A DNA stretch of 64,000 nt from Pilatotrama ljubarskyi (lineage: Eukaryota; Basidiomycota; Agaricomycetes; Polyporales; Polyporaceae), in the NCBI GenBank assembly GCA_022385805.1, contig MU277670.1, positions 777,102-841,101 on the forward strand. The letters are read 5' to 3'. Position numbers and translations under genes: made by a program. Positions 1,962 through 33,219 of this stretch are shown in pieces (position 1 is the stretch's first letter; each line of letters begins with the position of its first letter). The notes below the pieces were generated by a model that saw only the letters and a program-made list of their open reading frames with translations, searched no databases and had not been told where the DNA came from.

Positions 1962-3867
1962 CACGGCAGGCAAAGGGGGGGGACCCCGGGGAGCTATAGC
2001 CAGGGGATAGCCGCGACGGGCGTTTAACTGTAACCCGGCTTTCGCACGCCTCCCGCAGTGCGGCGGAGTTAAACTATCACTGGGCTATGGTACATATATG
2101 GCGGACGGGGAAAGGAAAACTATCACATCTATGTATGCACCCATGCGATAGCACTGCGATAGCCACGTATCAACGTCCTGCTCGGCGATGTGATAGGTTT
2201 GTGCTCGCTTTACCTTTTGAGGTAATGTGGCTTGCGTATACCCCAGCATTGACCAAACGCTTTAGTTAAACTAACGACACTCTCGCCACGAGGCTATCCA
2301 CCGCCTTCCCACCCTTGTCGTAGCTGGCGCAAGATATGTTGACGTGGACGACCAGGTCACGCCTTCAGACGCCTCCGCATGCCTCCCATGCCCTGGGAGC
2401 GGGGTATTCCTCACCAACCAGATTGAAGCCCGCCCCGCGTCTCTCGTGTAGCAGCGAAGGCGAGGGCTGAATTACCAGCAGCCACCGCTGTGAATGATGG
2501 TCTAGGTACGCGCGGATCTCGTCCTTGAACTTGTTGGCTGTGACGTTCAATCTGATCAGGATGGCAGGTGATGATACCAGCAAACAATCCTCGCTCGCCT
2601 CCACAGGACTTCTGCAAAGGCAAGGACCCTCATGTACGCCGTCACACATCCTCGCGACAACCTCTTTGACTGACCACGCTTTTGTGCCTCTTAGCAGCCA
2701 CACACGCGCAACGGCGCCTTTTCCACCCGTTGTCACATCGCACCCATTTGGCACGCGTGCCAGACCGCCCCCTTCCGCACCACGTCACGCATCCCCCATC
2801 CAATCGCGCGAGTCTACCCGCCGTCACGACCCCGCCATTCTGTGCGCCGTCACCGGTCACCACTCAACTGCACCGAGCTACGCCTTACCACGCCACTCTC
2901 TATGCTGTGACACCTCACCCCTCCTGACCGCGGTAGACTGCACCGCTCAACACCAGCCCGCGCACGTGCACACGGTCACGTCGCCCCGCCCGGCCTCGCA
3001 CACGCGGGCTCCAGACCACGCCGTCCGTGGCGCCATCGCACCGCTCTCCTCCTCGCCGCGCTAGACCGCACCGCTCCACACACGCCCGCGCACCCGCCCA
3101 AAGGTCACCCCGCCTCCTCCCGCCTCGCACGGGCACCCCTCCGCACGCGCCCCTCCACACGCGCCCCTCCGCAACGACTCGCGCTCGCGCGCTCGAGGCG
3201 ACGCGTCCGTACTGTCGTCATGCCCCCACCTTCGAGCCAGGCCAGGCCGCACCGCTCGACACTCGCCCACGCACACGCCCAAGGTCGCGCCCGCCTTACG
3301 CGCCCGCCCCTCGATACTCGCCGCCACGAACCGACCCGCGCTCGTGCGCTGCAGACGACGCGATCCGTAGCGCCGTCACTCCGCACCCCTCCTGGCCGCG
3401 GTAAACACCACCGCTCGACACCTGCCCACGCTCATGCGCACGGTCGCACCGCCTGCCCCGACTCACACTTGCGCGCTCCGGGTAACGCGAGCCGTGGCGC
3501 CGTCACGCCGCCCCTCTCCTGGCCATGCTAGAATGCACCGCTCAACGTCCGCCCCGCGCATACGCCCAAGGTCACGCCGCCCCGTCCGGTCCTACGCGCG
3601 CGAGCGCGCCCCTCGATACTCGCCGCCACGAACCGACCAGCGCCCGCGCGCCGCAGACGACGCGAGTCCGCAGCGCCGTCGCTCCGCGCCCCTGCTGGCC
3701 GCGGCAGACCCCACCGCTCGACACCCGGCCACGCTCATGCGCACGGTCACCCCGCCCCACCCCGACTCCCGCTTGCGTGCTCCAGGCGACGCCAACCGTG
3801 GTGCCGTCAAGCCGCCCCGTGTTAGACCGCACCGCCCAACACCCACCGGCACACAACACGCACGGCC
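1962..3867 (+). repeat. Left terminal inverted repeat, 1,906 bp
   Basis: It pairs with 31311-33216; position p maps to 35178 minus p. The two differences I found are T/C at 3232 (31946) and C/T at 3292 (31886). The outer 700 bp is of ordinary composition with AT-rich motifs. The inner 1.2 kb is very C-rich on this strand and built of degenerate repeats. Strict identity ends after ACGCACGGCC at 3867. Beyond it the right arm holds extra repeat units before similarity resumes (left near 3896-3925, right near 31185-31215), so the arms differ inside by copy number of a short unit. Confidence 0.93.
2022..2271. promoter_or_regulatory. Subterminal AGTTAAAC and ACTATCAC motifs (possible transposase-binding sites)
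   Basis: AGTTAAAC occurs as GTTTAACT at 2022-2029 and as AGTTAAAC at 2067-2074 and 2264-2271. ACTATCAC occurs at 2073-2080 and 2119-2126, with its partial complement GTGATAG at 2190-2196. All are mirrored in the right arm (for example 33149-33156, 33104-33111, 32907-32914). CACTA-type transposases are known to bind short subterminal repeats, so these are candidates. No binding is shown. Confidence 0.4.
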
Positions 3868-3868
3868 A
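2941..3868. repeat. GC-rich degenerate array inside the left TIR
   Basis: A core close to CACCGCTCRACAC recurs near 2941, 3069, 3250, 3409, 3536, 3712 and 3830, at steps of about 118-181 bp. Between cores lie related segments resembling GCCGTCACNCCGC and CCTGGCCGCGG. Long open frames here on both strands encode only Arg/Pro/Thr/Ser-rich repetitive peptides. They reflect composition, not genes. Confidence 0.7.
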
Positions 3869-4136
3869 CGCCGCCCCGCCCCGACCCGCAGGCGCGCCCC
3901 TCGACACCCGCCCATCCACTCTCGCCCCTACCCACTCTCCCTCGCACCACACGCCGTACCACAGCACAACTGACTGCCCCGTTGTCCCCTCGACTAGATA
4001 CGCACACACCACATCGCTCTACAGCACGCTGTCAGGCGACGGCGCTCCCTGACATTCCTACCTGACAGAGGTACTTGTCTTCACGCTACGTAGTACCTCT
4101 GCATCCGGTGTGCACAGTCCATGTAATATTCGAAAT

Positions 4137-7100
4137 CTAACTCTGATATTGTGGCCATGGGTCAGCATATGTCTCGCTCACGCATACCGGACGACTTACC
4201 CTGTCTAATGAGCGGACTACAACGCAGCTTTCGCCGATGTCGGACGGTTCACAAGCTAGCGCCGCAAAGTGGGCTCGTATATCTGACAGCGCCAAAACTC
4301 GGAGTGACGGTTGGAAACGGGCATAGAACAGCCGCGACTGGATGTCTTCGTAACACCGGAACGGGTCCATCGTAGCATGGTGCGCTGAGAGCGAGACGTG
4401 CTCCTCGACTATAAAGAACGGCTCTAAGACTGGTGTCCCGTCCACGGTCCGAACGTGCAGGACTATGTCTTGTATGCGACCAGCACGGGGGTATTGGCTA
4501 GGGGCATCGTCGGGAAGGGTGAATATGATATTTGCATTTCGCGGCTGACTGCCGTATGTCGAAAACTTGACAATCCCTTGTGCGAAGGTCTTGACATGCT
4601 GAGCTTCCGTAGAGAGACGAGGACGCTTGTCAGACAACTCCGCAAACACAGAGGTGAAGGACGCAGTCCCCGTCCCCGACAACTTCGAGATGCGCGACAC
4701 GAGGGCATCATACACCACCCGGGGAAGGCTGGTAGCCTTGCTCGCGTCGTACGTCTCCAAAGGCAGAGCACTGGGACCATTTACCTCCTTGCGCTCCGAC
4801 TTGACCGGCCGGAAGTCGGCAACACGCGTACCACGAGCGACGTTCTTGAAAGTCCGGTCGAATACCTCAACCATCTTGTCGAAGGGCGCTGCGCGAGGCC
4901 ACTCGGTCGTACTCATCAGCGACCTCACATTGGCGCCTATGTAGAAGTAACGCATAAAGGTGAGCGGCATAGCATCTAATTCGCAGTACTGTCAGCACTA
5001 GTCTAACGCGCCGGAGAAAACGGTCACTCACTAGTCTTGCTATTCGTATTCAGACCTTGCAGTAGCCCGTTGTAGCGTTCGAACGGGAAGGCCCACCAAG
5101 CGTGGACAGGGCCGAAGAGTTCAAGACACTCTTTGAGATGGAGGGAGAGATGGTGGTTCGGGACCAGATGGTGCCAGTCGAACAGGCGTTGCAACCCCGC
5201 GAGATACTGCATGAGGTGGTCGTCGAACTTGTCGATGCGGTCCTGATCCACTGACCGTCGAGTTGCGAGGTCGACGGCGGAGACGAGATGTATGAAGTTG
5301 TCGAGCAATGCCTTCTGTTTGGGGGAGGCTGTGGACGAACCCCAAAGACGTACAAGCGTAATCACCATGCTGACAGTGCAAACGGTGCGCCAGTGATCAG
5401 CCTTGAGCTTCCCGTGAGATGGACTGCCGAAGTTACGCGGGGGGCGTTCGAGCCAAGACGGGAATGACGTCTTGACGATGTCCTGACGGAGCTGGTTAAT
5501 CGTGGGCTGATCCAGTATGTTGAACTTCGATATGTCGTATTCCCCTTTGATGAGGTGGAAATCGACGGTGGGTTCTGGAAGTACAGGCGGAGCTCTGATG
5601 TCCTGCCCGGCGTTCCTGTTGGCCTACGAAAGGGAATGCGTGAATACCGAGTTCGATGAGACCCTGGAGCTGCTGGATAAGCCAGAACGGAACAACATAC
5701 CCATCGCAGCAGCGCGTCGACACACTTCTCCTTGGTCAGCTGAGTCGACGCGGCAGGGATTGCGCCGTTCAGTTCCGCGACAGCTGCTATGTAGCCCCTG
5801 CGCACCCGGGTCAGCTTGCTCCGAATGCCCTTCTTGACGAATAAGACAACGTGGTCGAGCCATTTCTGCTGTTCATCCGGTGGATGGGGTCGCATGCTCG
5901 GCGCGTCCGGCGCGTTATCCTTCACGTTGATTCCCCACACATCACGACAGTGGTGGCGCAATTCGCCTAGGAAGAGGTTGTGCATCGCATCGACCAACGG
6001 AAAGCGTGTTGCATCCCAATACGGTAGTCGGAGAAGCTCTGACCAGCGAACGCCGTACTTGCTGAAGAGTCTCTCCCTTTCCTCCTCAGTATCAGCATCC
6101 CTCCATCGTCGCGCGCACTCGTAGTGGTCAGCGCGGCTTCGTCTTCGCCAGCTTGAACGGTCTAGGTTGTCGATATCACTCTTCTTGAGGAGACAGAAGG
6201 AGCAAAACCGGCGCGCAGAGTGACCGGCAAACCCCGCTGTCTTCCGCAGGGCAGGAAGATCGCAAACGAGAGGTATGACCGCTGCCCTAACGAGCCAAGT
6301 CGAAGTCTCTGTACCGACGTACATCCCTCTATGCCACAGCTCGAGAAGATCATCGATGAGGGGCCGAAGGTAATGGTTGATCTGGTGAAGCTCGGGCTCA
6401 TGGGGGCCTGGTATCACGCCCGCCAAGTAGACGTTCTCGGGTCGGTACCGAAGGTGAGGCGGAAAATTCAGACAGACAAGATAGATCGCGCCAATTGAGT
6501 GGGATTTGCCGGCCTTCTTGTTTCCGAACGGATTGAACCAGTCGACGAACAAGCTGAAGACGAGGTGTACGCACCCCTCCCCCTGTACAGAGAAAAGGGT
6601 TCGACGGTCCGGGCCTCGGAATTGTCGCAGAGCAGGTCCGTCGAAGATATCCTCCATTCGAGAGGTCGGATCACGCTGCTTGTGCCATGCGTTCCGGGCT
6701 GACTTCAGGAGCTCCAGGCGAAGTCCGAGGTTGGTTATCCAAGTCTTGATGGAATGGTAGGGATACGGCTTCAGCGGATCGCCGCTACCTTCGTCTAGAA
6801 GCGGAGCCCCGCAGGTGCCTTTGTCGGTCTCCTTGTGCGTGCAGGTGGAGGGATATAATTTCTGTTTGTCGGGCCTGGGTGCGTGCGTGTAGTGACAGGT
6901 GGGGCAGCAGGCGTACCGAGTCATTGTCGGATCGAGATCTAGCCGTGACAAGACTGTGCGGATATCAGCAGGGATAGAATCGAGGAGGGCCTTTTGGGAC
7001 TCGGTGAGGGTAGGCGGCCGTCCAAAGGAGAGGTTGCAATAGACGAAGAGGCCGTAGACCATGGCCTGAAGAGCTGCTAGGACGAACTCCAGATCCGACC

Positions 7101-8171
7101 TCGAAGCCGCGGCAAGACCGTGCAAAACGGACGCCATCATGAGGCCAGCAAGTAGCCAAGGCTCAAGAGTCCTAGCATACGCTCCCGTGATGCGATCTAG
7201 GATCGCAGTGTGAATCCGCAGACGACTGAAGATAGATGGGGACGCGCACCCTTCTCGAGCGGGAGCGGGCCCTTGTCTGTGGGCAACTTCGACAGTAGAG
7301 TCGTGATCACCTCAGCCTCCCAAGCATCAAGTTTTCGACGCTCCAGAAGTGCTAGATGTTCATCTGCCCGCTGCTTGAGGACTTCTCGACGACGGTCGAG
7401 GTCATAGTCGCCTATCGCCTCCATGTCCTCCAGTTGCCTGCGATGTTCAACAAGTAGACCCCTTATGCTGAGGTAGAGAGGCATGTCGCCGCCATCTTCG
7501 ATATGCGGCATCGGGTCGCCGACACCAGTGGGGGATGCTGAAAATCGAAAGACCATGTTGTTGGGGATGCGATTTCGTTGACTCTGCAGCATGCCTTCAA
7601 TCCCGGCCAGTTGATTTAACCTGCCCTGGTGAGAGCGTCGGGGTCGGGCGGGGACCTGCACGCTGTCAGGCGGTGCACGCAATGGAGAGGAAATTTGACG
7701 AACATTTACCGGAACGTCCCCTACATCCGTCGTGGCCGTTGCATCCGCTGGATCCGCTGGCGCAATGCCCTGGAAGCGACGTCGTTGGGAACGTTAGCTA
7801 GGCTAGTCTCATTGAATGAGTAGATTGCCAGCACGCACCGCACCCGGGCCGTCCTCCGTGCCCGTCGTTCCCCCAGGTTCTTCATCAGATTGCGGCTCAG
7901 CGCGATCGCGAGGGCCGAGAGGCAATGAGGACGTAGGTTGTGAGGATCCTGCAGTAGCGAGGAAAATGGATGCCGCGATTCGTTGCTCATTCTCCTCCAC
8001 GAGAGCGGCCTCACGGAGTGCGTCTTCGGCTTTGTGCCTCTCTACTGTAGCTTGTGTCTTGAACAGTTTCCCTCGATGTAAGTGTTGATCTGCGTCGCGC
8101 CAGGTCGATGTTCGGCACTTGGTGCAAAGGCAGAGGTATCTTCCCTGTGGTACAGTGGCATCGGAGGACAT
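4137..8171 (-). CDS. Plavaka/CACTA-type transposase, 1,259 aa, apparently intact
   Basis: The model has five exons: 7839-8171, 7250-7769, 5701-7196, 5032-5623 and 4137-4975. They join in frame to 1,260 codons with introns of 53-77 nt. The N-terminus has a YLCLCTKC zinc-knuckle-like motif (about residue 13) typical of these fungal transposases. The catalytic core shows VDWFNPFG (about residue 502, first acidic residue), CDLPALRKTAGF, then FCSFC (C(2)C, about 613) and DAMHNLFLGELRHH (about 686). These match the D..., C(2)C and [M/L]H signatures of the CACTA (CMC) group and the Tnp2/Transposase_21 family. The C-terminal exon (GANVR..., MDPFRCYEDI, VVRSLDRVS) is the usual conserved tail. It lies 270 bp inside the left TIR and reads outward. 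No frameshift or stop was seen, so it may be functional. Confidence 0.9.
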
Positions 8172-8635: not shown

Positions 8636-10047
8636 TCAGTGTGCAGCGGGGCCGAACCATGTGCCTAGGTCGTAGTCAGACCGGGCACGCTTGTGAAACG
8701 CAGAACCCACCAGGTAGTGAGCTAGTACGACGCATGCGACCAGTAGAATAAAATTTTCCGCCGTGTCTGACTGGGTAATTGCCGGGATAGATACGTCGGT
8801 ATGACAAAGTGAGGCCTTAGACGAGTCGCGGATGCGCGTCACGCAGTGCGACGCTCGTGCGCCCCGAGCAAGCTCCAAGTCGGACGTCGACAGCACGGGG
8901 TCGGACGGAACGCCGTCCTGAATCTCCTGAGACGATCGCTTCGTAAGATGCACCGGAACTTACGGCGCTGGAATTAGGACTTACCTCCTGTGGGCCCGGT
9001 GCGCTAGAGGGCTTGGAAGCGCTTCCCCACGAGAGTTCATCGGCGAGGGACGAGCTGCCGAGAGATCCGTCCGCAGAGGACTCGGCGGTATCAGTCGTAG
9101 TACGAGCAGATCCACCCTCAGGCGAATCGCCGAACTGCGAAGCAGTTGGGAGTCGAAGAAATCCTGACGGACTATTGCAGGAGTCGTGGAGATGGTCCAG
9201 TGTCGTTCTCGTCGTCACACCTTCCATTTCGAGCTGCGAAATTCTATCTGATGCCGTGGCCGCCCAACCTTGGATAGAGGCCAGTACATCGTTGACGTCA
9301 GCTCTGTTCTGCGACTCCTCGCTAGAGTGCGACTTAAGAATGTTCAGTTCGATCTCCATGCAGTGCAGGCGAGCCGACAGTTTCTCCAGACTTGCTTCCT
9401 GGCGGCCGCGGATAGTCTCGAAGTCTTGACGTTCTTTGTCCAGAGTGCCTGAATGTACGTCAGGGCGCGAGATAGGGTCAGAGATTTCAAAGACTTACGT
9501 TGAGCTTGGCGATAGGAGAGAACGGCAGGGCGCGACCGCTCTTCGCAGTCCTGACGTATGGAGACCAGCTCTTCCTCCATTCGTACGAGCCGGGTGTCGA
9601 AGGCCCTCTGCGGAGCTGTCAGTGAGCACATCTGCTGCTCAGCATTTAGAACACTCACGTCGGCTCGCTTCAGCTCCAGAATGGCCCTACACAGTGTTGC
9701 ATTACACGAGCTCAACTCTTGAAGCTCTCGAAGTGCTTCAGCGTACGAGCTCTCCCATTCGGAGTCGCCGTCGTCGGCGCTGTTCGCACCCCAGAACGGT
9801 TGGCTGATCATATACAGAGGGGAGCCACATATGAGACTCACCTGATCCGTACGAGCATATCGATGGTCCGCTGGGAGAGCGTGTACTCTGCGAACGGCGG
9901 TGACGACGCTCCGTCCGAGTGGCTCAGCATCCCACGATCCTCCTGAACGGATGAGTCCGTGAGAGACGACACCAGAGACTTGCGTGCAGTATCGCGAGTG
10001 TAGGAGATGGGGGCTGAGAATTCGCCAGGCCTCGATGCATTGAACAT
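8636..10047 (-). CDS. Cargo: coiled-coil protein with one C-terminal membrane segment, 396 aa
   Basis: Family not recognised. Exons are 9842-10047, 9659-9779, 9499-9607, 8985-9448 and 8636-8926, with introns of 50-62 nt; together 397 codons including stop. The N-terminal 90 residues are Ser-rich. The middle (about 80-230) is a charged coiled coil with segments such as ALRELQEL, LVRMEEEL and DKERQDFETIR. It is followed by a Ser/Thr/Gly-rich linker. Near the C-terminus, ENFILLVACVVLAHYLVG (about residues 357-374) is a clear membrane helix, followed by a 20-residue tail starting HKRAR. The topology is uncertain: no signal peptide is visible, and the basic residues after the helix favour a cytosolic tail. 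In the first intron a nearer acceptor at 9804 would give only 38 nt, so I chose the one at 9780. It could have a membrane-anchored scaffold or tether role. Confidence 0.7.
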
Positions 10048-10365: not shown

Positions 10366-11515
10366 TCAAATAGCATGTTCAAGGAACTTACTTTTCCCCC
10401 ATACTCGTCTATACCATGTCTGACCGACCCAAGAGGGATTCAACTTCCTCCCCGACAAAGAGAGGCGTTTCCCATCCTCACGTCGATAGCCGATTTTCAC
10501 GGGTTTCCATTGAGGAGCCTGCTCACCGTCGGACATCCAGATCCATAATCGGGAACGCCTCCATTCATCGGTGTTCCTGTGGTAGAAGAGATCGCCTAAT
10601 ACCAGGTCATCCATTGAGATGAGGTGGGCGGGGGGTCGTTCGATAGGCTCGGTGCCGCGCGTTTCAAACCATGCCGTCTCGATGCCGTCTGGGGCGTCGT
10701 CGCCCTCGGCCGCAGGACGCACGACGTGCAGCCTTTCCAGCGTCTGTTGTGTTCGTTCAGCGCGATGGCCTTTGACAGATGGGCCCGATCTACCTTGGAA
10801 AGAGCGCCGATATCGGTCGCGCTGGAAGACGATTCAGCTTCGTTCGCACAGGACTCTGCTGGCAGGTGCACATGTCGGTCAAGCTGTGACCCCTGAGCCT
10901 CGGCTGACGAAGTCAATCAGAGAGGGAGCTTGGTGAGCGCAACAGAGGACCTACATGACGAGCCAGCTGGCCTTGCGACGTCGGCAACGGGTTCAACAGA
11001 CGGCCCAGCGGCGGGCGCGCAGGGGGAGATCACTAAGGGGCGATGGCGGGGCGTTCGAGTCTCAGCTGCAGCAGTGTTGGCCCGCCCTCCTGGTCTCGAC
11101 GGCGCGCCATCGACTATATAGCTGGGCAACGTCTTGGAAACGACCCTGCGTTCTTCGCCCCCCAAAAAGGACGAACGCGGGTTGGGAGCCGACCTATCCA
11201 CGGCGTGCTTCAGTGGCACGGACTTTGCACGACTTCGAAGACGGGAGTGCAACGCTTCACTCACCGGGCCCGTGCAGCTCCTTCAGCAAATTCCCGTAGA
11301 ACCGTCGGTTCGCCACCAAACTCGCCTCCGGGAGGAGTAGGGACAGATAGCGCGAGATGAGTGGTGCGTTGAGGCGTGAGGACGGTGGTCGCAGTGTATC
11401 GAAACGGGGTCTTCTGCGACTCAGGCTTCTTCAAGATACGATGACATCGGGAACAGTGGTAAAAAAGGAGCAATAGCAGAAGTAGACCACCTGCTGGGAG
11501 CCAGACGGTGTACAT
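10366..11515 (-). CDS. Cargo: membrane protein with GDxF/WxW/GYxRxDGKRL C-terminal domain (copy 1)
   Basis: Exons are 11265-11515, 10955-11193, 10794-10903 and 10366-10743, in frame, 325 aa. The N-terminus, MYTVWLPAGGLLLLLLLFYH, is one hydrophobic helix followed by basic residues. The middle is Ser/Pro/Ala-rich. The C-terminal about 75 residues form a compact domain: LGDLFYHRN..., LWIWMSD, then IGYRREDGKRLSLS, NPSWV and WYRR. The neighbour at 11991-13472 has the same layout and domain, so the two are paralogues. The strong donor sequence GTAAGT just before the stop suggests an extra 3' exon may replace the last few residues. The family is unknown to me. The conserved Trp, Gly and basic residues suggest a folded binding domain on the cytosolic side. 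Confidence 0.65.
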
Positions 11516-11990
11516 GGCGTTGAGATGGAAGGAGAGAAGGGAGCCCGCGCGTACTGGGCCATGTTATCAAGAGGCAAAGGACAAAGGACGAAGATGTGTG
11601 CCTCAAGCATGGAGTACCATGAAGAGCGTCTAAGAGCAGACGCTGGTATGGGCGTCTAGGCGTGTGCGTCCGTGCTTGTAGCTTTATGCACTTGCAGTCA
11701 CCCCGTCCGAATCCCAGCTGCCCGGAACGGCCAAAGGTCTCAGATAACCTCAATTAACTTGCATATGGGATACGCAATGTACGGTACAAGAACGATAGAC
11801 AAATTGCACACAGAATGAGGGGAACATGGGTATATGAACCGAGGTTGCGACCATTGGTCGCAGAGCCTCTGACTGGAGGTCCTGAGTTTGTGCTTCGTAT
11901 AGGCAGCATTGAGCAAAATACTTCCTGAAGCTGGAGGTATAGTGTCAGTGACTTGTCCAAGGTAGCTCGAGAAGGTTGTCCCTTACCGAC

Positions 11991-13472
11991 TTAGTCGACC
12001 TTCGCCGCATTAGCAGCCTCTTGAGCGAGAAGATCCCGCTCCTTCTGCATGCGTCTGAAGTACTTCTCGGTGACCCACGACGGGTCCTTCTTCTGTGCTG
12101 AGAGGTTCAAGCGTTTGCCGTCGTCGCGAACGTAGCCGAGAGCGATAGGGCGCCAATACGCCGAGCCATCATCGCTCGGGGTCCACAGCCACACCTGGTG
12201 CTTGGGGGGGTTGAATCCTTTGGCGGCGTGCACGAAGACGTCTCCTACTTGCAGACGTCGGCATTCGGAGGCGTCCGGAGGAGATGTCATGAGATGCGAG
12301 GCCTCTGACTTGAAGTAGCCTCCATCGCGCGCCGCAGTGCCGCCGCTATTCGAGGTCTTAGACTTGGAGCGGCGACGATAGCGAAAGCCTTCGTCGTCGG
12401 AGCTATCGTCGTAGACCGTAGTGACGGAGGATATGGCGGTCTTGGGCGTCGACGTAGGGGTGGTGGCCAAAGGGGACGTCGCGGGTGTCTGCGGGCACGC
12501 GGACGGAACGGGTGAGGACCGAGGCGAGGGCGTGAGTGAGCTCAGCCGGGACGATGGAGCCCGAGAAGGAGCACGCAAGGACAGAGCGGGCTCCGCGTCC
12601 ACACGTCGGCTGGCTTGAGATATAGAGATGTCCGTCGCGTCGTGCGCGATGCCATCAGCACGATGACGGCTGGGCCCAGGAGTCGGGGGTCGATGGACGG
12701 ACTGCGCGGGTTGAGAGGTCCGGGGCGTGCTTGGGGGAGACGTAGGAGGTGCGGGAGACCGATGCGCCGGGTCGGGCACGATGGACTGCAGCTTTGGCGG
12801 CTCCGATCCACCGCCTCCCCCATCAGATGAGGGTTCTTGCTGTGGACCCGCTTCCGAGATATCGTGGCGGGGAGGACGCCTAAATGACGATGAGATCGCC
12901 GAAGTGATAGAACGTCAAGAACAACACACCTTTGTACAACCGAATTGCTGAAGGTCCTGCTAATCGTGGGGATCTCCTGCGGTTGGTGAGAGGTGGATGG
13001 AGGCTGGCGAGGGATAACAGCAGAACGAGTGGAGAATTGAACATCGACTTCGGTGATGGCGCGGCCTGCGCGCCACTGCTCGCTCTGTATGTCTTGGAAT
13101 ATGTGCTTGACGTAGAAGCCGAAGCAGAAGAGAAGAATGAAGGGGGTCACAAGCAAGAGGAGGACGACATATGACTCGAGAGTGACAGTCATTGTTGTGG
13201 GCGGTGCTTGTGACGGCGAAGGAGATGGGGACGGGGGTGGGGATGTCTGGAGGTCCAATATCTGGCGAAGGTTTAAAAGCTCAGCGGAGAGTGGCACAAG
13301 ATGCTGTTGAAAGACCATGATGGCCTTCGAGTGCCTCAATGCACTTACCGCTTGCCTTGTGAGGCCCGAAACCTCATCCCAGAAAGAGCCGCACTGCGCG
13401 TCGGTTACAAGCGGGAACAACGCTGCCGCTATAGGCGGCGGCGGGGTGTAAAGGCCATAAGAGGAGTACCAT
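11991..13472 (-). CDS. Cargo: membrane protein with GDxF/WxW/GYxRxDGKRL C-terminal domain (copy 2)
   Basis: Exons 12930-13303 and 11991-12879 are well supported by a 50-nt intron at 12880-12929. A first exon at 13395-13472, encoding a signal-like MVLLLWPLHPAAA and joined by a 91-nt intron, fits in frame (446 aa total) but is tentative. A simpler start is the ATG at 13192. The membrane helix SYVVLLLLVTPFILLFCFG precedes a long Ser/Pro/Thr-rich cytosolic linker with an Arg/Lys-rich RYRRRSKSK patch. The C-terminal domain reads VGDVFVHA..., VWLWTPSDD, ALGYVRDDGKRLNLS, DPSWV and YFRR. It matches the paralogue at 10366-11515 motif for motif and then adds a charged helix (MQKERDLLAQEAANAAK). Function unknown. 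Confidence 0.65.
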
Positions 13473-13996
13473 AGCGATGCTGAGCAAGAAACACCATCAG
13501 CTTGGGTGTACTCTTTCTTGAACGAAGACGCACTTCCGACTCGTACGCTCGATGGAGAGCCCGAGAACTCGACTCTTGCTGAGACGTCGCGCGCACCACA
13601 CTACATATGAGCGTCCACTGGGTTCCAGGGTGCGACATGTACAGAAGACATGTTGTCAGACGCAACCGATCGAGGGCATGAGAGTGAACGCACGGAGAGA
13701 GAAAAATGAAGGTCTTTGACAGGGAGGAGCCGAATGGACAGTCCCCACCACGTGGACCGTGTACGTCCGGGAAGAGAGGAGGCAGGAGCTGACCGAGACC
13801 TCGTCCACTCAGCGCCAGCGCTCGTTCCAGCGCGCTCCTGACGTATGGACATGTACAGCGGTTCAGAGTCCGGTATCTCATCGTGCACTGAAGTTGCGAG
13901 CAGCATACACATGGAATTCGACGGGGAGACTATATACTGCCACAAGTCTGGACGCATACATATATGACGATACCACTGTCCGGCATTAGACTCTAA

Positions 13997-15290
13997 CTAC
14001 TTATCCTCCGATCCGCCCAATTCGACAGGCCTCTCCTCTTTCACAGCGTCGTTCCCGGCAGGCCCACCCTTCCACTTCAACTTCTGCTCCCTCAGGCGAT
14101 AGAGACCATGTTCGATACTCGCGATGTGCACTTCGATGGGGAAACCAGCGGATGGGACGGCTGGTGACGTGAGTTGCTCGCGCAACTCTGCGAGATCAGC
14201 ATCGACGCTCATGAGTGTCTGCGTGGCTGCGGCGATGTAAGCGGCTGCGACGCTCCTGTACTCTTGTACCTGATCGAGAACCGTTGAGCGGTGACCGAGG
14301 TCGCGAAGCTGGTCCTTGTTCCCGCCGAGGATTGTCCATAGCCGCCCCAGCAGTTCGTACTGGGCAACGGAAGTGGCGAAAGCCTCCTCCACGCATAGTC
14401 CATGAACGGCAGCAAGACGCTCCTCGAGCGTGTCCAATTTGGTTTCGGTGACAGATGCGTCGCTTAGGAGCTGGGCGACTTGCGAGGCGAACACGTCCAT
14501 GGAGACCCAGAACATGCGCGCAAGCATCGCGTCCAGGTCAGACCGCCTCCCTTGACTCGACGCGGCCTGTATCTCTCGCAAGATGTAGGAGTTGAATGTG
14601 GAGACCCTGGGGATGCGAGCATGAGTCTCAGATTGCCCAGATTGGCGCAAACGATGCTCACCGATCGATCGTTCCGAGGACCTTGGAAGTGAAGAGCTGG
14701 AGCCCCCGAGCCAAGTCCTTCGCATCCAGCACAAACGCAGAAAGCGTTTCCGAGAGAGGCACCTTGGAGGTAATATTGCTACCCTTCACCAGTGCAATCA
14801 CGTCCTGCACCGCAAGTCCCGCGTGCTTCATATTGAGAGTGAGATCCAACCCAGCCGATGACTGCTGCACGAAGTCGTCGAGGGCGCGATGCTGTATGGA
14901 CATAAGACGAGGGAAGTCGACATCGGAGGCCGAAGAATGTTGCGATGCGCGGTGACTGGCACAAGGCGGAAGGAGAGAGACAAGAGGCCACTCGGACGGG
15001 TTGTAGGATGCCAGCGCCGATCGGGTAATGTCCATAGCCAACGAGATTGTTGTGAGCACGAGTGTGACCGTCAGAATGCCCGCGATCAAGGTGGAGACCG
15101 GCTCCTTCATGATCACTAAAGCACGCATGAGTACCTCGGCGACGTGACGTCCGAGTATCACGGCACCGCTCAGAACGGGCGTGAGCGGGTTGTCCGCAGG
15201 CGCGGTGCGGCTATGCTCTGCCTCTCGATCGGTGGTCTGCAAGTAAGGCGTTTAGTCGACAGTATGTGGGGTTGTGCAGCTACATACCAT
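13997..15290 (-). CDS. Cargo: membrane-anchored helical protein, 395 aa
   Basis: Exon 1 is only the ATG (15288-15290), then a 51-nt intron, exon 2 14662-15236, a 55-nt intron and exon 3 13997-14606; 396 codons including stop. A membrane helix, TLIAGILTVTLVLTTISLA, lies at about residues 50-70. The remaining 320 residues are predicted helical, with ARGLQLFTSKV, LLSDASVTETKLDTLEERL, ELLGRLWTILGGNKDQLRDL and a final lysine-rich tail. I recall similar proteins of unknown function, often in several copies, from polypore genomes; this was not checked. It may be a topological counterpart of the 8636-10047 product, with the membrane segment at the other end, but I see no alignable sequence. Confidence 0.72.
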
Positions 15291-17125: not shown

Positions 17126-17630
17126 ATGTACCACCGTCACACCGTAAGTGCGCCCCCGGGCCATGCACGATCATACCTGCTGATACCGGCGTTTGTAGCT
17201 TTTCACCGGTCGAGTTGCCACCCTCAGGGAGATGGGTCTCTACAACCATCTAATCCTTTTGGACCGTATCACCATCCGCGGCATGAGCGACGATGAAGCC
17301 GAGATGCACGGCGACGCGAAGCCTATCACGTACCGCATCATCAGGTTGGCGTGGCAGAGTCTTGCGCTCAGGACCTTCTTGCGCATGCTCGACGCCCTGC
17401 ACAACGAGACTTGGCAGAGGCCTAATCCGCGCACTCTTCGGTGGACTGCGCCTCGCATCCGGTATGAGAGCGCTGAATCCAGGGTAGAGGAAGGTCGCCC
17501 TCCCGTCGGCTTATGGCGCAATTGTTACGATGCGACCTGGCTTGCGGGTCTCACCCCTCAACAGCTCCTCGATCTCGACATCGTCGATGAGGACTATGAC
17601 TTCATCTTCAACCTACCTCCACGCATGTAG
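17126..17630 (+). CDS. Cargo: short paralogue of the C-terminal domain of the 27912-31097 gene, 149 aa
   Basis: Exon 1 (17126-17143, MYHRHT) is joined by a 55-nt intron (17144-17198) to exon 2 17199-17630. The protein matches the last exon of the gene ending at 31097: L(F/Y)..R, ...LxDR...MS.DE, YRI+...WQS.A.RTFL, LWRNCYD..WL and a near-identical DIVDEDYDF end. The intron sits at the same place in both, just before the Leu-Phe/Leu-Tyr, so the small gene is a 5'-truncated copy or a stand-alone domain. It has its own TATA-like box, and the frame is intact over 149 codons, which argues against simple decay. The function of the domain is unknown. Confidence 0.7.
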
Positions 17631-20295: not shown

Positions 20296-21162
20296 CTAAG
20301 CGAGGAACGCGCCCGGCAGCTCCATGCGCGTGTCGGTTTCTTCGACGGCGGCATCATTGGTGCCGTTGACCGGAGAGGTAGCCTCTGCAGTCAGACCCGC
20401 GCCTCGGTCGTCGGGTGGAACCTGAGCATTCGTTTCACTCGCGGATACCGTGCTTCTATCATCGTCCAATCCTTCACTCCAAGACTCCTCGGTAAGGACT
20501 CCGACATCCACGGTAACGGGATGCGTCGGGGCACCTTCTCCATCGCTTCCAGCTTCGCTTTGCGGCTGGGATTCGGGAACCGCCGGAGAGGTATTGTCCG
20601 CAATGTCGGACGGATGAGGAACTGCGCATTGCGCTTGGAACAGAAGCTTCAGCCTCTCGGCGTATTCCCTCCGGGCAGCGAGAAGATGGGCCTTGCCCTC
20701 CGATATGAGCTGCACCATCTTGTGAAACTCCAGGATGTTCGTGAAGTGGACGGTGAACGTAGCGGGGTTGCCGGGACCGTCGTACATCGTCAGAGTGACG
20801 TCCTTCTTGGCTTCGCTACAGGTGAAGGTCATCGTGTGATCGAGGGTCATGGAAAGCATAAACTTGTAGTGACAATTGTCGCTACTGAGGGTCTGGAGGT
20901 CGGCGATGACAAAACCATCTGTGCATGTTGTGTGACTAGATCATAAGGCGCAGAACAACGTAGACTCACAGGTTGCACGTCCTAGAAGACCCACTACGAG
21001 ACGCCCTGGGCGCGAGAAGCTCTCGCCACTGGGATGAAATCCGTTGCGGAAGCCGTAAACCACATCGCTAGTGGCAAGCACGACCTCGGGGCAGAGACTG
21101 AGATGGCACAATGAGGGTGCTTTTGGCCTGGACAATATCTGAACATACCTGTGGCTGGACAT
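20296..21162 (-). CDS. Cargo: small protein with acidic tail, copy 1 of a duplicated cassette, 254 aa
   Basis: Exon 1 is 21149-21162 (14 nt), exon 2 20970-21097 and exon 3 20296-20918; introns are both 51 nt; 255 codons. A core of about 150 residues alternates short strand-like stretches (EVVLATSDVVYGF, RLVVGLLGRATYGFVIADL, DVTLTMYDG, TFTVHF) and ends in helices (FHKMVQLI..., ARREYAERLKLLF). An Asp/Glu/Ser/Thr-rich disordered tail of about 100 residues follows. The gene at 23711-24388 is a paralogue: first exon also 14 nt, second 131 versus 128 nt, and a matching YGxV motif after the third acceptor. The strand pattern with a C-terminal helix resembles a PH-like fold only superficially. Function unknown. 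Confidence 0.7.
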
Positions 21163-21534
21163 GGAGAACTGGAAGAGAAGCGCGACGTTCAGCGTGCGGG
21201 ACCAGGAGGAGAACCAATCTGAAGTGTGGGGCGACGATTAGGCTGCTACAGCGGACAAAGAGCCTTTGAGAGGGATATGATCCCGCGCCACGCGAACTCT
21301 GAGACTATCAAGGCAGTCAACGCCTCCTTCCATTGTGATGAGATACCAACAATACAACGAGCATAACTCCTCGCGATCGTCCAGGTCCCGCCGCTCTCGC
21401 AGGTGTCCCAGAGCGCGGGGAGCAAATAGCCAGCGCCGGATTTCAGAGCGACTCGCGGCGGCGGCGGAAGCATCGCGCGCCAACGCATACTGCGAGTAAC
21501 ACAGCCGAACCAGGACACTTGCTCCTGCGTCGCC

Positions 21535-22797
21535 TCAAGAGGTCATGACGGAGCTGTTCGGCGTATTCCTCTCCAACAACCGCGTGGTGAGGCGGCCAAT
21601 GGATGCCGCAAAATTCTCGTACATCTGAATGATCGTTGGCATGAGCCAAGGAAGACGGGGAGGGGGCAAACAACGCACGTCTCTCATCAGCTCGACCGAG
21701 TCCAAGATGGCCGTGAAGGCGGCGCTGGCGTTGAGCAGAGTTGCAACGGGGACAGTCGTGCCTTCAATGATTCCGGGTAGGTTGGACGGGGTGGATCTCG
21801 CGATGTCAAAACATTTCTGTGTGTTCGTCAACAAGAGTACAGAGGCACCGCGGGTAGACCTCACCTCTAACTCAGCCAGAATCTCGTTCTGGACGCATGT
21901 CTGCTTGTGGAGACAATTGGTGAGAGCGGAGAACTTCGACAGTTGACGCTCGAGCAGCCCGCGAGTAATAGGGTCCTTCATGAGAATCGCACGGGTGTGC
22001 GCAAACATTGCGCCGCGTTGCTTCTCGATGGTTTGGCGCTCGTTATGCAAGTCGGCGAGACGAGAGAGCAGAGGTCTGGCAGCGACCACGTTCTGCCTCT
22101 GAGACGCTGCTTTGTCGAGAGACCGCGAGAAGGCACGTACATCGGGCTTCACATCAAGTCAGCAAAAAAGGAGGGCACGAGAGCACGGAACGTACCGTAG
22201 GCCTTTCGAGAATCCGAAAAGCAGGTGTGAACGTCGCCAGACGCTCCCGGGTATCAACAAACATGTCTCTGAAAGCCTTGATCGAGCCCTCCAAGCTTCT
22301 CAGAGCTTCCTGGTACCAGGCCCTCTCCCCAGACTGCAGGTACCCCTCCTGGGCGGCATAGAAGCGTTTGAACTGGAGGAGGATCCAACCAGCGCTCTCT
22401 GACATGTTTATTGGACGTACTCACCCCTTCATGCATTATCTCCGCACTTGCGTACATTTTCGCGACCTCGAGAACGCTGAGGACGAGTCCATTGGTACCT
22501 ATGGACTTACGGATCTTCCGGGCATTCTCGAAGATGGCGACCTTGGCTGCATGGCGATAGTCGCGGTTTAACGCAGTCATGGCGGCATGGACGCCGCTGT
22601 GCCATTCCTTCGGATCGTTGCTGAGCCCTAGAGGGCGCAGCGACCTACGAGGATTAGGCCCGATATCTCAACTCTCGGAATGCCACTCACAGTCTGACTT
22701 GCAGAATCAACTGCGCTTGAAGAGTCTCCGCTGCTTCTTGCTCTCTGCTGATTGCGGCCAGGGCTTCGGCAACGGGTACGAGGTTTGGAGCAGACAT
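21535..22797 (-). CDS. Cargo: helical/coiled-coil protein, copy 2 of a duplicated cassette, 337 aa
   Basis: There are six exons: 22691-22797, 22425-22644, 22196-22372, 21865-22146, 21679-21816 and 21535-21624. The total is 338 codons, with introns of 46-54 nt. Exon number, phases and the 177-nt third exon equal those of the 18216-19593 gene. The protein is mostly helical: EALAAISREQEAAETLQAQL, ALNRDYRHAAKVAIFENARK, HNERQTIEKQRGAMF. Sequence identity to copy 1 is low except at scattered positions, so the duplication is old, much older than the last movement of the element. No membrane helix. Family unknown. Confidence 0.75.
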
Positions 22798-23710
22798 GTC
22801 CTAGGATACGCAAGGAGATACTAGGGAAAACGACTGGATGATACTTCTACCACGTTTTGTGCACTTGGTCTGTACTTATCATGCCGGCGTGGGACACGGT
22901 GTTGGCACAAGCGGGGGGATGGGCCATGCGCCTGACGAGAACGACGCGTGGCACGCGCGCGGGTGGGGGATGCGCTAGTGCTAGCTTATGGAGGGGCGTG
23001 ACACTGGTTCTGGCATCGTCGGGTTAAATGAATAATATATACATGCCTGGTCAGAACTCGCGACACACGGATCAGATCCTCGCATAGCAAGCCGTGGAAT
23101 GCAAAGGGATGCATATGTGGTCGTACGGAGAATGAGGAGTGATAGCGAGTGCAACGCGCTCCGGCGCTGAGCGCTGAGGCCTGAGGCCCCGCGGCCACCA
23201 TATGGTGGCCCATCCGCTGACGTGCCGCGTTTGACTAATCTCAAGAGTCAACCGCGCTCTCGAAACAGCACACAGGACCTCCCCGGGGTTCATTTCATTG
23301 GGCGACCGCAGACGGAGTGCATTTCTTCAAGATGGCCGTGACAAATCAGTACTCATGTACACTCAGTCACTCAGTAAAGCCCACAAAGTCGGGCTCTCTG
23401 GGAGGACGGACAGGACACTCCCTCAAACCGTCGCGCTTGAAATATTCCACACGTTATCCGGACACCGGTGGTCGACTGGTTTAGAGAACATGGCGCATGC
23501 TGGCGCCTGACTTCTCCACCTTGTCGGTAACCCTCCGTGGGCAAGGCGGCTGTTGCAGCTAAGACACCCTGTACTCTACAATAATGCGACTCACACACGG
23601 AGTTCTACAGTTATACGACACAAAGCGAGACATGACACGATCTAGTCATTGCCAGCGAATTCAGAAACTAAACTGTGGTCGTATCAGTGCTCCGAAGTCA
23701 AAGGAAGCTA
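22798..23710. other. 913-bp spacer in the duplicated cassette
   Basis: No supported gene. It contains a palindromic CCACCATATGGTGG near 23195-23210 and a GC-rich GGCCTGAGGCCC stretch. It presumably contains the promoter of the 21535-22797 gene. Confidence 0.25.
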
Positions 23711-24388
23711 TCACGCACAATCGTCGTCTTTGTCGAAGCTGTCATCACCTTCAGGTGGGGCTACGCGAGGGAAGGCATCGAGAACCTTTCCTAGGGCAGC
23801 GTGGATGTCGATATGACGTTCCTCGGCCTTACCCTTGGCGTCAGTGACGGCTCCAACGAAGCTCCAGTAATCGCGCAACGCGTGAAAGCGTATATGGAAC
23901 CTATGCCATGCCATGCTGCCGCTTCCATCCAGGAAGGACACGGTACGGGTCATCTGCGTCAGAAATCGGGTGAGCTCGCGTCATCAGCGGTTGCTGCTGG
24001 TGTGCCACTGCACCTCTTCGGTAGTGACAATCGTATCGGCGGCAATGAGGATGGAGCTTATAGGGACTGGCTGGGAGGCGCAGAGGTTCGTCCCTTGACC
24101 GTCGCTCGCAACGACCTTACTCATAACGAGACCATCTGTCATGAGTGTGTGAGGTCGAGTCTATGCAGGACGGGTGACAACTCACACAATCCCGGGGCGA
24201 TCATAGCCAACACCATGTGAACGGGGATCCATGCAAGTCCGCGCAGCTCGGCACCTGATACTTGTGCCTCTATGGCTATCATGGAGTTACTGTTTGTAAA
24301 GGCAACTAGGGGCTCGCTATCCGGGAAAGCATGAGTGCGCATAATGAGTAATGACGGCGGATGGTTACACTCACCTGAGGATAGACAT
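23711..24388 (-). CDS. Cargo: small protein, copy 2 of a duplicated cassette, 169 aa
   Basis: Exons are 24375-24388 (14 nt), 24186-24316, 24014-24135 and 23711-23953; introns 50-60 nt; 170 codons. It is a paralogue of 20296-21162: both begin with a 14-nt exon encoding MS-(I/S)-(L/H), then EP/PEVV, then a hydrophobic strand and L-YG-(L/F)-V after the same intron. Both share an F.(I/V).F....(E/D)(F/Y) motif before the final helix. It has one more intron than its paralogue and a much shorter acidic tail (DDSFDKDDD). Function unknown. Confidence 0.65.
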
Positions 24389-26563: not shown

Positions 26564-27633
26564 ATGCCTCGGCCAGAACCAGCTTCGCAAGACCCTTTCG
26601 CAAATCGCTTCATATATGAGGAGGCTGCGCGTGGTATGTACTTGTACTCACTTCCTTCGTCCCGAGTGAGTGCTCAAGGACTGCCTGCGAGGAAGCAAAT
26701 AACCAGAATGCTCAAGCAGGCCCAAGGCATGCCGCAGAAGATCCGCGCGTCCAGCGATCCACGCGCGGCCACGACCGCAGCGAAGTCTGCTACGCGCAGC
26801 CCCTCGTCCTGACGTCCGGTTTCAGCATGGTGCTATCGCTCAGCCTAGCTGTCCTCGCATATCTTTTCATGTCGCAAGCAAGCCTGAATGCGTTCGAGTT
26901 CACATGGTCTGTGGAGTTTGCTGGTCGATGGACTCTACAGCTTCGTGCGTGTCCTCTGCAAGGCAAATGCTTCCCCGACACGGTGCAAGAGCAAGTTAAC
27001 CTCGCACTTGCCACTATCCTCCGGGGTCCAGTCAGACTCCGCGATTATGCCCTATACGTAGATGGCGGACGCGTCTGGCCTCCGCTTACCAGCAACCGAT
27101 CAGAGTCAGCGTTCGCTGAGTCCCCGCGCCAGCTCCATCCGCCAGAGGTTGCTCTCTCCGAAGACATCCGCATAGGAAATTGCTGGGAGAGTCCGCAAAT
27201 GCCTTCGCAGTTGGCTGTCGTCCTTGACCAGCTCATTCATCCCACCAACGTCACTATCGACCATATCCCCCTCGAGATCGCCGCAGACATTGGCGAGGCA
27301 CCGCGTCACCTGCTCCTTTGGGGAGTCGTAGAGGGCACGGGAAACCATGGACGATATCACGACCTCCGTCAGGCGTACCAGGATCCTTCCCCCGGCGCTG
27401 CAGCCCGTTTTGGCCCGTCTCTGAGGTCAGACACGGATACTTACGCGCTCCTAGCGGACTTCACGTACGACATTCACGCACCTCTGCATATCCAAACTTT
27501 TCAGATCGATCCCCGGGTAGTCGAGTCGCGTATGGACTTCGGCCTGATTGTCTTGGAGATTCTAGACAACTGGGGCAGTAACTCGACGTGTCTCTACCGA
27601 CTACGCATCCATGGGAGTGATGTTGAGTTGTAG
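26564..27633 (+). CDS. Cargo: SUN-domain inner-nuclear-membrane-type protein, 327 aa
   Basis: Exons are 26564-26633, 26679-26784 and 26826-27633 (introns 45 and 41 nt); 328 codons. The N-terminal about 58 residues are basic (RKQITRMLKQ), expected in the nucleoplasm or cytosol. MVLSLSLAVLAYLFMSQA is the single membrane helix (about 60-77). The rest is a complete SUN (Sad1/UNC-84) domain: DYALYVDGGRV, GNCWES..., PTNVTIDHIPLEIAADIG, APRHLLLWGVVEG, ALLADFTYDI, HIQTFQID, MDFGLIVLEILDNWG and STCLYRLRIHG. SUN proteins sit in the inner nuclear envelope and bind KASH partners in the perinuclear space to couple nuclei to the cytoskeleton. At 327 residues it lacks the long lumenal coiled coil of many SUN proteins. 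Finding a SUN gene inside a transposon is unexpected. Confidence 0.88.
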
Positions 27634-31097: not shown

Positions 31098-31184
31098 TTA
31101 CAATAAAGTGTTGCTCACGACACGCTGTACATCTGCACAGGTGGGCTTCGGTAGCTTTGGCGGCCGCGAGCCCGTGAGTTCGGT

Positions 31185-32250
31185 TGTGAGTGAACGGGCG
31201 GGTGTCGGGTGGTACGGTCTAGCGGGGCGAGCAAGAGAGCAGCGTGACGGCGCCACGGGTGGCGTCTCCTGGAGCGTGCGTGCGCGGGTCGGGGCGGCCG
31301 GGCGCGGCGCGGCCGTGCGTGTTGTGTGCCGGTGGGTGTTGGGCGGTGCGGTCTAACACGGGGCGGCTTGACGGCACCACGGTTGGCGTCGCCTGGAGCA
31401 CGCAAGCGGGAGTCGGGGTGGGGCGGGGTGACCGTGCGCATGAGCGTGGCCGGGTGTCGAGCGGTGGGGTCTGCCGCGGCCAGCAGGGGCGCGGAGCGAC
31501 GGCGCTGCGGACTCGCGTCGTCTGCGGCGCGCGGGCGCTGGTCGGTTCGTGGCGGCGAGTATCGAGGGGCGCGCTCGCGCGCGTAGGACCGGACGGGGCG
31601 GCGTGACCTTGGGCGTATGCGCGGGGCGGACGTTGAGCGGTGCATTCTAGCATGGCCAGGAGAGGGGCGGCGTGACGGCGCCACGGCTCGCGTTACCCGG
31701 AGCGCGCAAGTGTGAGTCGGGGCAGGCGGTGCGACCGTGCGCATGAGCGTGGGCAGGTGTCGAGCGGTGGTGTTTACCGCGGCCAGGAGGGGTGCGGAGT
31801 GACGGCGCTACGGATCGCGTCGTCTGCAGCGCACGAGCGCGGGTCGGTTCGTGGCGGCGAGTATCGAGGGGCGGGCGCGTAAGGCAGGCGCGACCTTGGG
31901 CGTGTGCGTGGGCGAGTGTCGAGCGGTGCGGCCTGGCCTGGCTCGGAGGTGGGGGCATGACGACAGTACGGACGCGTCGCCTCGAGCGCGCGAGCGCGAG
32001 TCGTTGCGGAGGGGCGCGTGTGGAGGGGCGCGTGCGGAGGGGTGCCCGTGCGAGGCGGGAGGAGGCGGGGTGACCTTTGGGCGGGTGCGCGGGCGTGTGT
32101 GGAGCGGTGCGGTCTAGCGCGGCGAGGAGGAGAGCGGTGCGATGGCGCCACGGACGGCGTGGTCTGGAGCCCGCGTGTGCGAGGCCGGGCGGGGCGACGT
32201 GACCGTGTGCACGTGCGCGGGCTGGTGTTGAGCGGTGCAGTCTACCGCGG
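31185..32250. repeat. GC-rich degenerate array inside and just internal to the right TIR
   Basis: This is the mirror image of the left array. Compared with the left arm it holds extra repeat units between 31185 and 31311, including one more copy of the CGTACCACCCGACACC-like core on the complementary strand. The array length therefore differs between the arms even though the outer 1,906 bp are the same. Confidence 0.6.
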
Positions 32251-33216
32251 TCAGGAGGGGTGAGGTGTCACAGCATAGAGAGTGGCGTGGTAAGGCGTAG
32301 CTCGGTGCAGTTGAGTGGTGACCGGTGACGGCGCACAGAATGGCGGGGTCGTGACGGCGGGTAGACTCGCGCGATTGGATGGGGGATGCGTGACGTGGTG
32401 CGGAAGGGGGCGGTCTGGCACGCGTGCCAAATGGGTGCGATGTGACAACGGGTGGAAAAGGCGCCGTTGCGCGTGTGTGGCTGCTAAGAGGCACAAAAGC
32501 GTGGTCAGTCAAAGAGGTTGTCGCGAGGATGTGTGACGGCGTACATGAGGGTCCTTGCCTTTGCAGAAGTCCTGTGGAGGCGAGCGAGGATTGTTTGCTG
32601 GTATCATCACCTGCCATCCTGATCAGATTGAACGTCACAGCCAACAAGTTCAAGGACGAGATCCGCGCGTACCTAGACCATCATTCACAGCGGTGGCTGC
32701 TGGTAATTCAGCCCTCGCCTTCGCTGCTACACGAGAGACGCGGGGCGGGCTTCAATCTGGTTGGTGAGGAATACCCCGCTCCCAGGGCATGGGAGGCATG
32801 CGGAGGCGTCTGAAGGCGTGACCTGGTCGTCCACGTCAACATATCTTGCGCCAGCTACGACAAGGGTGGGAAGGCGGTGGATAGCCTCGTGGCGAGAGTG
32901 TCGTTAGTTTAACTAAAGCGTTTGGTCAATGCTGGGGTATACGCAAGCCACATTACCTCAAAAGGTAAAGCGAGCACAAACCTATCACATCGCCGAGCAG
33001 GACGTTGATACGTGGCTATCGCAGTGCTATCGCATGGGTGCATACATAGATGTGATAGTTTTCCTTTCCCCGTCCGCCATATATGTACCATAGCCCAGTG
33101 ATAGTTTAACTCCGCCGCACTGCGGGAGGCGTGCGAAAGCCGGGTTACAGTTAAACGCCCGTCGCGGCTATCCCCTGGCTATAGCTCCCCGGGGTCCCCC
33201 CCCTTTGCCTGCCGTG
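31311..33216 (-). repeat. Right terminal inverted repeat, 1,906 bp
   Basis: Inverted copy of 1962-3867, ending in CCTGCCGTG. It starts 213 bp after the stop of the last cargo gene. Only two base differences from the left arm were found, with no insertion or deletion. Confidence 0.93.
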
Positions 33217-33219
33217 TGA
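33217..33219. repeat. Target-site duplication TGA, right copy
   Basis: TGA directly follows the terminal CCTGCCGTG and matches TGA at 1959-1961 on the other side. Confidence 0.75.

Follow-up and report, generated by a model that had tools for sequence, protein, structure and literature searches.

A probable CACTA transposon of 31 kb in Pilatotrama ljubarskyi and its SUN, WD40, and membrane protein gene kit

A 64,000-nucleotide stretch of DNA from the polypore Pilatotrama ljubarskyi (contig MU277670.1, positions 777,102 to 841,101 of the forward strand), which we refer to as the window, contains a 31,255-bp element with mirror-image ends at positions 1962 to 33216. The initial annotation of the window described this element as a cargo-carrying DNA transposon. 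The question raised by the locus is whether the element transports a load of host genes or has a gene set of its own. We examined the window as part of a 33.1-Mb assembly of 173 contigs, which are given C numbers here (the window is C1:777102-841101). The results made us highly confident that the element is a CACTA unit carrying a gene kit of its own. With slightly less confidence, we consider it likely from the sequence comparisons that this CACTA (En/Spm) DNA transposon is complete and probably autonomous and that it belongs to a multi-gene lineage in the Polyporales.

Ends and transposase of the element

The features that define the element were as follows.

1959 to 1961: left target-site duplication (TSD), TGA
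1962 to 3867, plus strand: left terminal inverted repeat (TIR), 1,906 bp, starting with CACGGCAGGCAAAGG; subterminal GATAG(C) motif repeated
4137 to 7511, minus strand: transposase (tnp2/PF02992 plus DUF4218/PF13960), five-exon model, 1,036 amino acids
31311 to 33216, minus strand: right TIR, 1,906 bp
33217 to 33219: right TSD, TGA

The two arms differed at two positions (1,904/1,906 identical) and lost their similarity within about 20 bp inward of the TIRs, which bore out the 1,906-bp mirror-image arms of the initial annotation and, together with the TGA triplets, its description of both ends. The termini were CAC...GTG with a CACGG tip. When up to one mismatch was allowed, the terminal 17-mer was found at six places in the 33.1 Mb (the window pair and the tips on C18, C29, C108, and C144) and at no place in a backwards control, and the same ends elsewhere in the genome had unrelated flanks. 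Because of these two results, chance or an assembly palindrome was an unlikely source of the ends. Subterminal GATAG occurred 7 times in the first 350 bp versus 0.6 expected, and CCGGAA occurred 6 times versus 0.2 expected in the TIR of an element on C109, both counts being compared with simple expectations without a shuffled control. The GATAG(C) motif was common to the window element and C18. Each TIR also contained imperfect direct repeats about 300 bp apart (window 3364 to 3756; mirror, 31422 to 31814).

In the case of the transposase, the open reading frame (ORF) at 5362 to 7311 on the minus strand matched PF02992 (tnp2; E = 8e-19), and the ORF at 5024 to 5623 matched PF13960 (DUF4218; E = 1e-7), both over the curated cutoffs. 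The five-exon model had no internal stops, its introns were GT..AG, and it contained all of the D, D, CxxC, H, and E motifs, among which are the residues that we take to be catalytic. It was 60% identical to T. sanguinea protein P0018, with 95% of the length covered. The uninterrupted five-exon transposase with CACTA-group motifs that had been annotated therefore held up, except that its 5' end was uncertain because homologues such as P0020 (1,236 amino acids) had a longer N terminus and the gene finder chained extra upstream exons to the model.

Excerpts of PMC12730594 (Kojima 2025) describe fungal EnSpm elements with CAC..GTG ends, a 3-bp duplication, and C(2)C and H(3-4)H motifs in the transposase. 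The ends and TSD of the window element fit the fungal EnSpm elements of Kojima 2025, and we therefore assigned it to CACTA/EnSpm rather than Plavaka. The features found were a tnp2-type DDE transposase, CAC...GTG TIRs, a 3-bp TSD, and subterminal repeats. The term "Plavaka-like" in the initial annotation was abandoned. Specifically, the transposase ORFs had no match to PF18759, which we take to be the Plavaka family; their Pfam match was tnp2, the termini were CACGG, and PF18759 was present in 1 of 104 transposase homologues among the matches listed. Plavaka termini are given as TGT..ACA or CATCA..TGATG in the excerpts of PMC12730594. Among the proteins scanned (18 interior ORFs and 5 gene models of the window, which represent part of the interior), none had a Pfam match to a tyrosine recombinase (Starship captain). 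The view that this is a giant DDE (CACTA-type) transposon in a basidiomycete, distinct from Starships, was supported.

The interior gene kit in this genome and in other species

Interior genes were modeled with a simple gene finder that used only the sequence. It yielded about 11 to 12 candidate genes, close to the "twelve or more" of the initial annotation, with some models fused or weak; the SUN and WD40 genes had not been named in that annotation. The models were as follows.

8711 to 10047, minus strand: coiled-coil-type gene (by eye), fused with the transposase by the gene finder
10387 to 11610, minus strand: C-domain protein, copy 1, 49% to the C90 copy; model weak beyond the domain
11991 to 13532, minus strand: C-domain protein, copy 2, with a predicted membrane helix; fused with the next gene by the gene finder
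14068 to 15236, minus strand: protein with a predicted membrane helix; relatives on C98 (a kit contig) and C40
17199 to 17627, plus strand: extra fragment like the last exon of gene G (C1:794306-794707)
18216 to 19593, minus strand: gene model, distant paralogue (35%) of the gene at 20296 to 22797
20296 to 22797, minus strand: gene model with matches on C1 and C18 only
23642 to 24342, minus strand: small gene D, similar to a gene at the same place in C90
24967 to 26276, minus strand: WD40/beta-propeller protein (beta-propeller Pfam families)
26707 to 27633, plus strand: SUN-domain (Sad1/UNC, PF07738) protein with one predicted membrane helix
27900 to 31097, plus strand: gene G, a long protein with a conserved C-terminal part; start approximate

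The PF07738 match in the ORF at 26620 to 27633 scored 67.8 bits against a cutoff of 22 (E = 1e-18). The window WD40 copy scored 22.2 bits for PF00400, below the cutoff of 27, and the C109 copy scored 67 bits. Gene G, which matched no Pfam family, ended 213 bp before the right TIR. The coiled-coil-type gene had similar stretches at the matching place in the C90 element (E = 5e-14 and 9e-11), and the isolated G-like exon at 17199 to 17627 may be left over from a nested element or have arisen by duplication.

Five of these genes (the transposase, WD40, C-domain protein, SUN, and G genes) are referred to as the kit. Our searches of the same genome scored the best candidates only, and the counts are therefore lower bounds. 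At least two of the five kit genes were found on at least 14 contigs (C1, C6, C18, C32, C44, C56, C90, C98, C104, C109, C125, C147, C162, and C173). We obtained at least 42 transposase matches (14 at 239 bits or more, on 13 contigs), at least 39 WD40 matches (13 contigs), at least 27 SUN matches (14 loci), at least 24 G matches (11 contigs), and at least 13 C-domain matches (9 contigs, query included). On nine of the 11 G contigs (C1, C18, C173, C90, C32, C109, C56, C6, and C98), SUN was located 2.4 to 3.0 kb upstream of G on the same strand; the other two were C60 and C44 (weak match). Under uniform placement, the probability of this spacing was 2e-18 (9 of 10 contigs, weakest contig excluded). 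Another kit gene was present on all nine C-domain contigs, on 11 of 13 WD40 contigs (the exceptions were C133 and C4, a weak match), and on 9 of the 13 contigs with a strong transposase match.

Three further elements, on C90 (28 kb), C109 (21 kb), and C56 (20 kb), were read in part, and all had kit genes in common with the window element. Two layouts were apparent. In one (C1, C90, C18, C173, and C98), WD40 was on the strand opposite to SUN; in the other (C109, C56, and C162), WD40 was on the SUN strand and was accompanied by a leucine-rich repeat (LRR)-like gene. C104 fit the second layout without a SUN match, whereas C6 differed in gene order, with G matched at two places 12 kb apart and WD40 not matched. 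The relative order of the kit genes in the window was kept in C90 and, where the genes were present, in C98, C18, and C173. Other genes were variable: among the best candidates, the gene at 20296 to 22797 was matched on C1 and C18 only, the membrane gene at 14068 to 15236 was matched on C1, C98, and C40, and the LRR-like gene (by eye) was found on C109, C56, C162, and C104. Related elements repeatedly contained the interior genes that we searched for, frequently in the same order, and these genes were rare elsewhere in the genome. As judged by these matches, the interior of the element is largely its own conserved gene kit, partly collinear between elements. On C40, the relative of the window membrane gene was at C40:240046-241160, and no other kit gene was matched on that contig.

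Linkage of kit genes was seen in four other species. In Trametes cinnabarina (scf184881), g3 was the transposase, and g10 contained SUN and G in one predicted protein. In T. coccinea, a single scaffold of 584,370 bp carried all three genes (G, SUN, and transposase). A single predicted protein contained transposase and SUN in Ganoderma sinense (GSI_04715) and transposase and WD40 in Phlebia brevispora (NM688_g599). Further SUN relatives (Lentinus, Polyporus, Cerioporus, and Hygrophoropsis) came from protein records without gene context. Because of the linkage in four species, the kit association is probably older than these genera; a horizontal history is possible.

To place the SUN proteins, we used a tree of 26 sequences from which C32 (partial) and C72 (divergent) were excluded. 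One side contained nine element SUNs and 10 of the 14 SUNs from other species (P0002, P0038, and P0006 to P0013), with T. coccinea grouping with C1/C18 (0.95) and T. cinnabarina with C98 (0.89). On the other side were C21:160074 (Sad1-like), C73, and C21:280079, as well as P0014 to P0017. The support for the split was 0.91, or 0.78 with P0014 moved across. One weak transposase match (C21:152743) lay about 7 kb away from the Sad1-like SUN gene; we regard this gene and the other unlinked SUN genes as presumptive host genes. C73:44218 and C21:280079 are divergent SUN genes that were sisters in the tree and were unlinked to the kit; they are possibly a host-lineage SUN pair.

Selection, co-inheritance, and mobility

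The ratio of nonsynonymous to synonymous substitution rates (dN/dS) was estimated between C109 and C56 for 13 exons, 12 of which were measurable. Ten of the 12 had values of 0.05 to 0.17, including the transposase (0.09 and 0.17), the LRR-like gene (0.10 and 0.05), WD40 exon 3 (0.12), the C-domain gene (0.15 and 0.16), SUN (0.16), and the last two G exons (0.14 and 0.14). For SUN, the values were 0.27 between C1 and C18 and 0.22 between C90 and C173. Most of the exons measured are under purifying selection. In addition, transposase and SUN distances were correlated (r = 0.78; permutation P = 5e-5; 8 elements, 4 species).

The TIRs on C18, C29, C108, and C144 began at the same base. They were 99.4 to 100% identical to one another over the aligned parts (C29 had about 108 extra bases) and 79 to 81% identical to the window TIR over its first 167 to 235 bp. 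After the tip, the C18 contig ended in 10.9 kb, and its TIR continued into G, SUN, and WD40; the possibility, raised in the initial annotation, that the TIRs occur solely as small elements was therefore discounted. The C108, C144, and C29 contigs ended in 0.6 to 1.2 kb. The triplets flanking the four TIRs were reverse complements, TAG/CTA for C108/C18 and CTT/AAG for C144/C29, and the chance of such a pairing was <0.001 by simple arithmetic. We infer from these triplets that the four TIRs would pair into two insertions, with the interior between the contigs unassembled.

The element on C109 (C109:44563-63275) had 964-bp TIRs that were 99.9% alike. Ends of the C109 type also delimited a 267-bp miniature inverted-repeat transposable element (MITE) with matches at 13 places. 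The copies that were read (C114:11428-11694, C82:34128-34394, and C32:14892-15158) were 98 to 99.6% identical, and all three had 3-bp TSDs (TAT, GTT, and CAG). The MITE is probably mobilized by these elements. Taken as sequence signatures, the near-identical TIRs with complementary flanks and the MITE TSDs point to recent mobility.

Several observations weigh against this picture of mobile elements with a conserved kit. The search for an empty site proposed in the initial annotation yielded no joined site in the 33.1-Mb assembly, in which the left and right 400-bp flanks matched once each, and for this reason movement of the window copy is something that we can only infer; no polymorphic strain was seen in the one assembly. 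The left flank of C109 read N, C90 and C56 did not have a complete pair of outer TIRs (C56 had one complete end only, and C90 had only a 75-bp repeat at 93%), and contig fragmentation left several kits without one end. A strong transposase was found without a nearby kit gene on 4 of 13 contigs (C28, C21, C157, and C35), with the nearest SUN 52 kb away on C21. Five of the 14 SUN loci (C162, C72, C73, and two on C21) had no nearby G; the C162 locus does have WD40 and the C-domain gene. Four of the 14 SUNs from other species (P0014 to P0017) were on the unlinked-SUN side of the tree, and the T. coccinea link was a common scaffold only. The earlier (middle) G exons had dN/dS values of 0.38 and 0.35 between C109 and C56, and WD40 exon 1, with saturated synonymous sites, yielded no estimate. 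Finally, the distance correlation was computed on 93 transposase columns and owed part of its strength to the close pair C109/C56; G. sinense, C6, and T. cinnabarina were placed differently in the transposase and SUN trees.

Outside the element, the flanking gene models at window positions 40115 to 41602, 44278 to 47349, 47646 to 49274, and 54290 to 57596 looked ordinary. Judged by eye, they were GTP cyclohydrolase II-like, 3-isopropylmalate dehydrogenase-like, Nob1-like, and haspin-like, respectively.

Alternative explanations, possible function, and known systems

A CACTA transposon might instead have acquired host genes that it now moves, as Starships do by other means. Gene content does vary between elements (the 20296 to 22797 gene, the membrane gene, and the LRR-like gene), and SUN and WD40 presumably go back to a past capture of host genes. 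However, the core genes were shared by divergent elements and, as judged from linkage, by other species, most of the exons measured are under purifying selection, and the three variable genes matched almost only on kit contigs (the exception was C40). We therefore regard a cargo carrier as improbable, and "cargo-carrying" in the sense of a host-gene load did not survive the finding that the interior genes recur in related elements and are rare elsewhere. Purifying selection alone cannot separate benefit to the host from benefit to the element, and SUN, WD40, and G could serve the host, with elements having hitchhiked with these genes or been domesticated around them. The many divergent, scattered copies tied to transposases or TIRs in one genome argue against service to the host, as does the separation of the element SUNs from three other genomic SUN genes, one of them (C21:160074) having the appearance of an ordinary Sad1-type gene; we consider this explanation very improbable. 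The same low standing applies to a defective composite, in which older nested elements lie between young TIRs and are immobile as a unit. The extra G-like fragment at 17199 to 17627 suggests nesting or duplication, yet the TIRs are nearly identical, the transposase looks intact, and the kit order of the window recurs in the elements named above.

In our reading, the DDE transposase would cut at the CAC...GTG ends and paste the whole unit with a 3-bp duplication. Gene G, the final gene ahead of the right TIR, may supply the partner protein and attach to the repeated subterminal motifs, much as TnpA does in plant En/Spm. The SUN protein matched human SUN1/SUN2 with E values of 5e-14 to 1e-13 (SUN1, 5e-14), and all nine element SUNs kept the GxCW, H, and CLYR positions, which in human SUN2 we take to be tied to KASH binding. 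A hydropathy helix was found in all six element SUN ORFs with an N terminus (C1, C18, C173, C6, C162, and C98) and in the C90, C109, and C56 SUN gene models; the partial C109 translation was without one, and the crude threshold missed the Sad1-like C21 gene and C73. The element proteins thus had both the PF07738 domain and the predicted membrane anchor of the SUN family, with a luminal part that was short by eye. Membrane helices were also predicted in the C-domain proteins of C1 (second copy), C90, C109, and C56.

Because SUN keeps these positions and a helix and the C-domain proteins have a predicted helix, an assembly at the nuclear envelope is plausible. The SUN protein would be in the inner nuclear membrane, its SUN domain facing the lumen, and would connect the element or the host nucleus to the envelope, possibly together with the WD40 and C-domain membrane proteins. 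The likeliest benefit would be in transposition or transmission, either through donor DNA placed at the envelope or through nuclear positioning in the dikaryon. In our judgment, a nuclear-envelope role of some kind has slightly less than an even chance. More tentative, and in our view doubtful, is the proposal that the transposon lineage may encode its own nuclear-envelope complex (SUN, membrane C-domain protein, and WD40). Such a selfish linker of nucleoskeleton and cytoskeleton (LINC) complex would tether element DNA or bias the position or inheritance of dikaryon nuclei. The nuclear periphery is a site of silencing, and SUN might counter silencing there rather than move DNA or nuclei, which we think unlikely. 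TET/JBP genes carried by fungal transposons are thought to help in evading methylation-based silencing (excerpts of PMC12730594).

A nuclear-envelope-type protein is a surprising partner for a transposon, and the lineage shows how large members of a classical cut-and-paste superfamily can become: a giant element of a size comparable to that of virus-like transposons, with a gene kit of its own under selection. A SUN protein active at the envelope would mean that a transposon acts on the architecture of the nucleus, and does so in fungi that must keep two nuclei separate within one cell to complete their life cycle. Some polypore SUN genes annotated as host genes may be transposon genes.

CACTA elements, enlarged CACTA elements, and gene-carrying fungal EnSpm elements are already known. 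What appears to be new is the conserved SUN/WD40/membrane-protein kit, in that no description of a CACTA lineage with such a kit was found in the open-licence papers searched. The window element shares tnp2, CAC..GTG ends, and a 3-bp TSD with CACTA/EnSpm elements, including fungal EnSpm with TET/JBP, and also resembles the latter in its subterminal repeats and extra internal genes, as far as the excerpts of PMC12730594 describe them. It differs from them in its size of 31 kb, its approximately 11 to 12 candidate genes, and its SUN/WD40/C-domain/G kit, and none of the scanned proteins (18 interior ORFs, 5 window gene models) matched TET/JBP. Enlarged En/Spm elements of 16 to 20 kb with 4 to 5 ORFs in the red alga Chondrus crispus (cited in excerpts of PMC6431247) are likewise enlarged, multi-ORF CACTA elements, but their host is a red alga. 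Starships, eight of which are reported in the basidiomycete Tremella fuciformis (excerpts of PMC13066641), are likewise giant gene-bearing fungal mobile elements. In contrast to them, the window element has a DDE/CACTA transposase and long TIRs rather than a tyrosine recombinase captain, and it holds conserved genes of its own rather than cargo. Teratorn and Polinton/Maverick, as presented in excerpts of PMC6431247, likewise combine many genes of their own with a transposase or integrase, whereas no viral polymerase, capsid, or protease family was found among the scanned interior proteins of the window. Finally, the element SUN has the same domain, the same GxCW/H/CLYR positions, and a predicted membrane helix in common with SUN1/SUN2 of the human LINC complex, from which it differs in its short luminal part (by eye) and in being encoded by a transposon.

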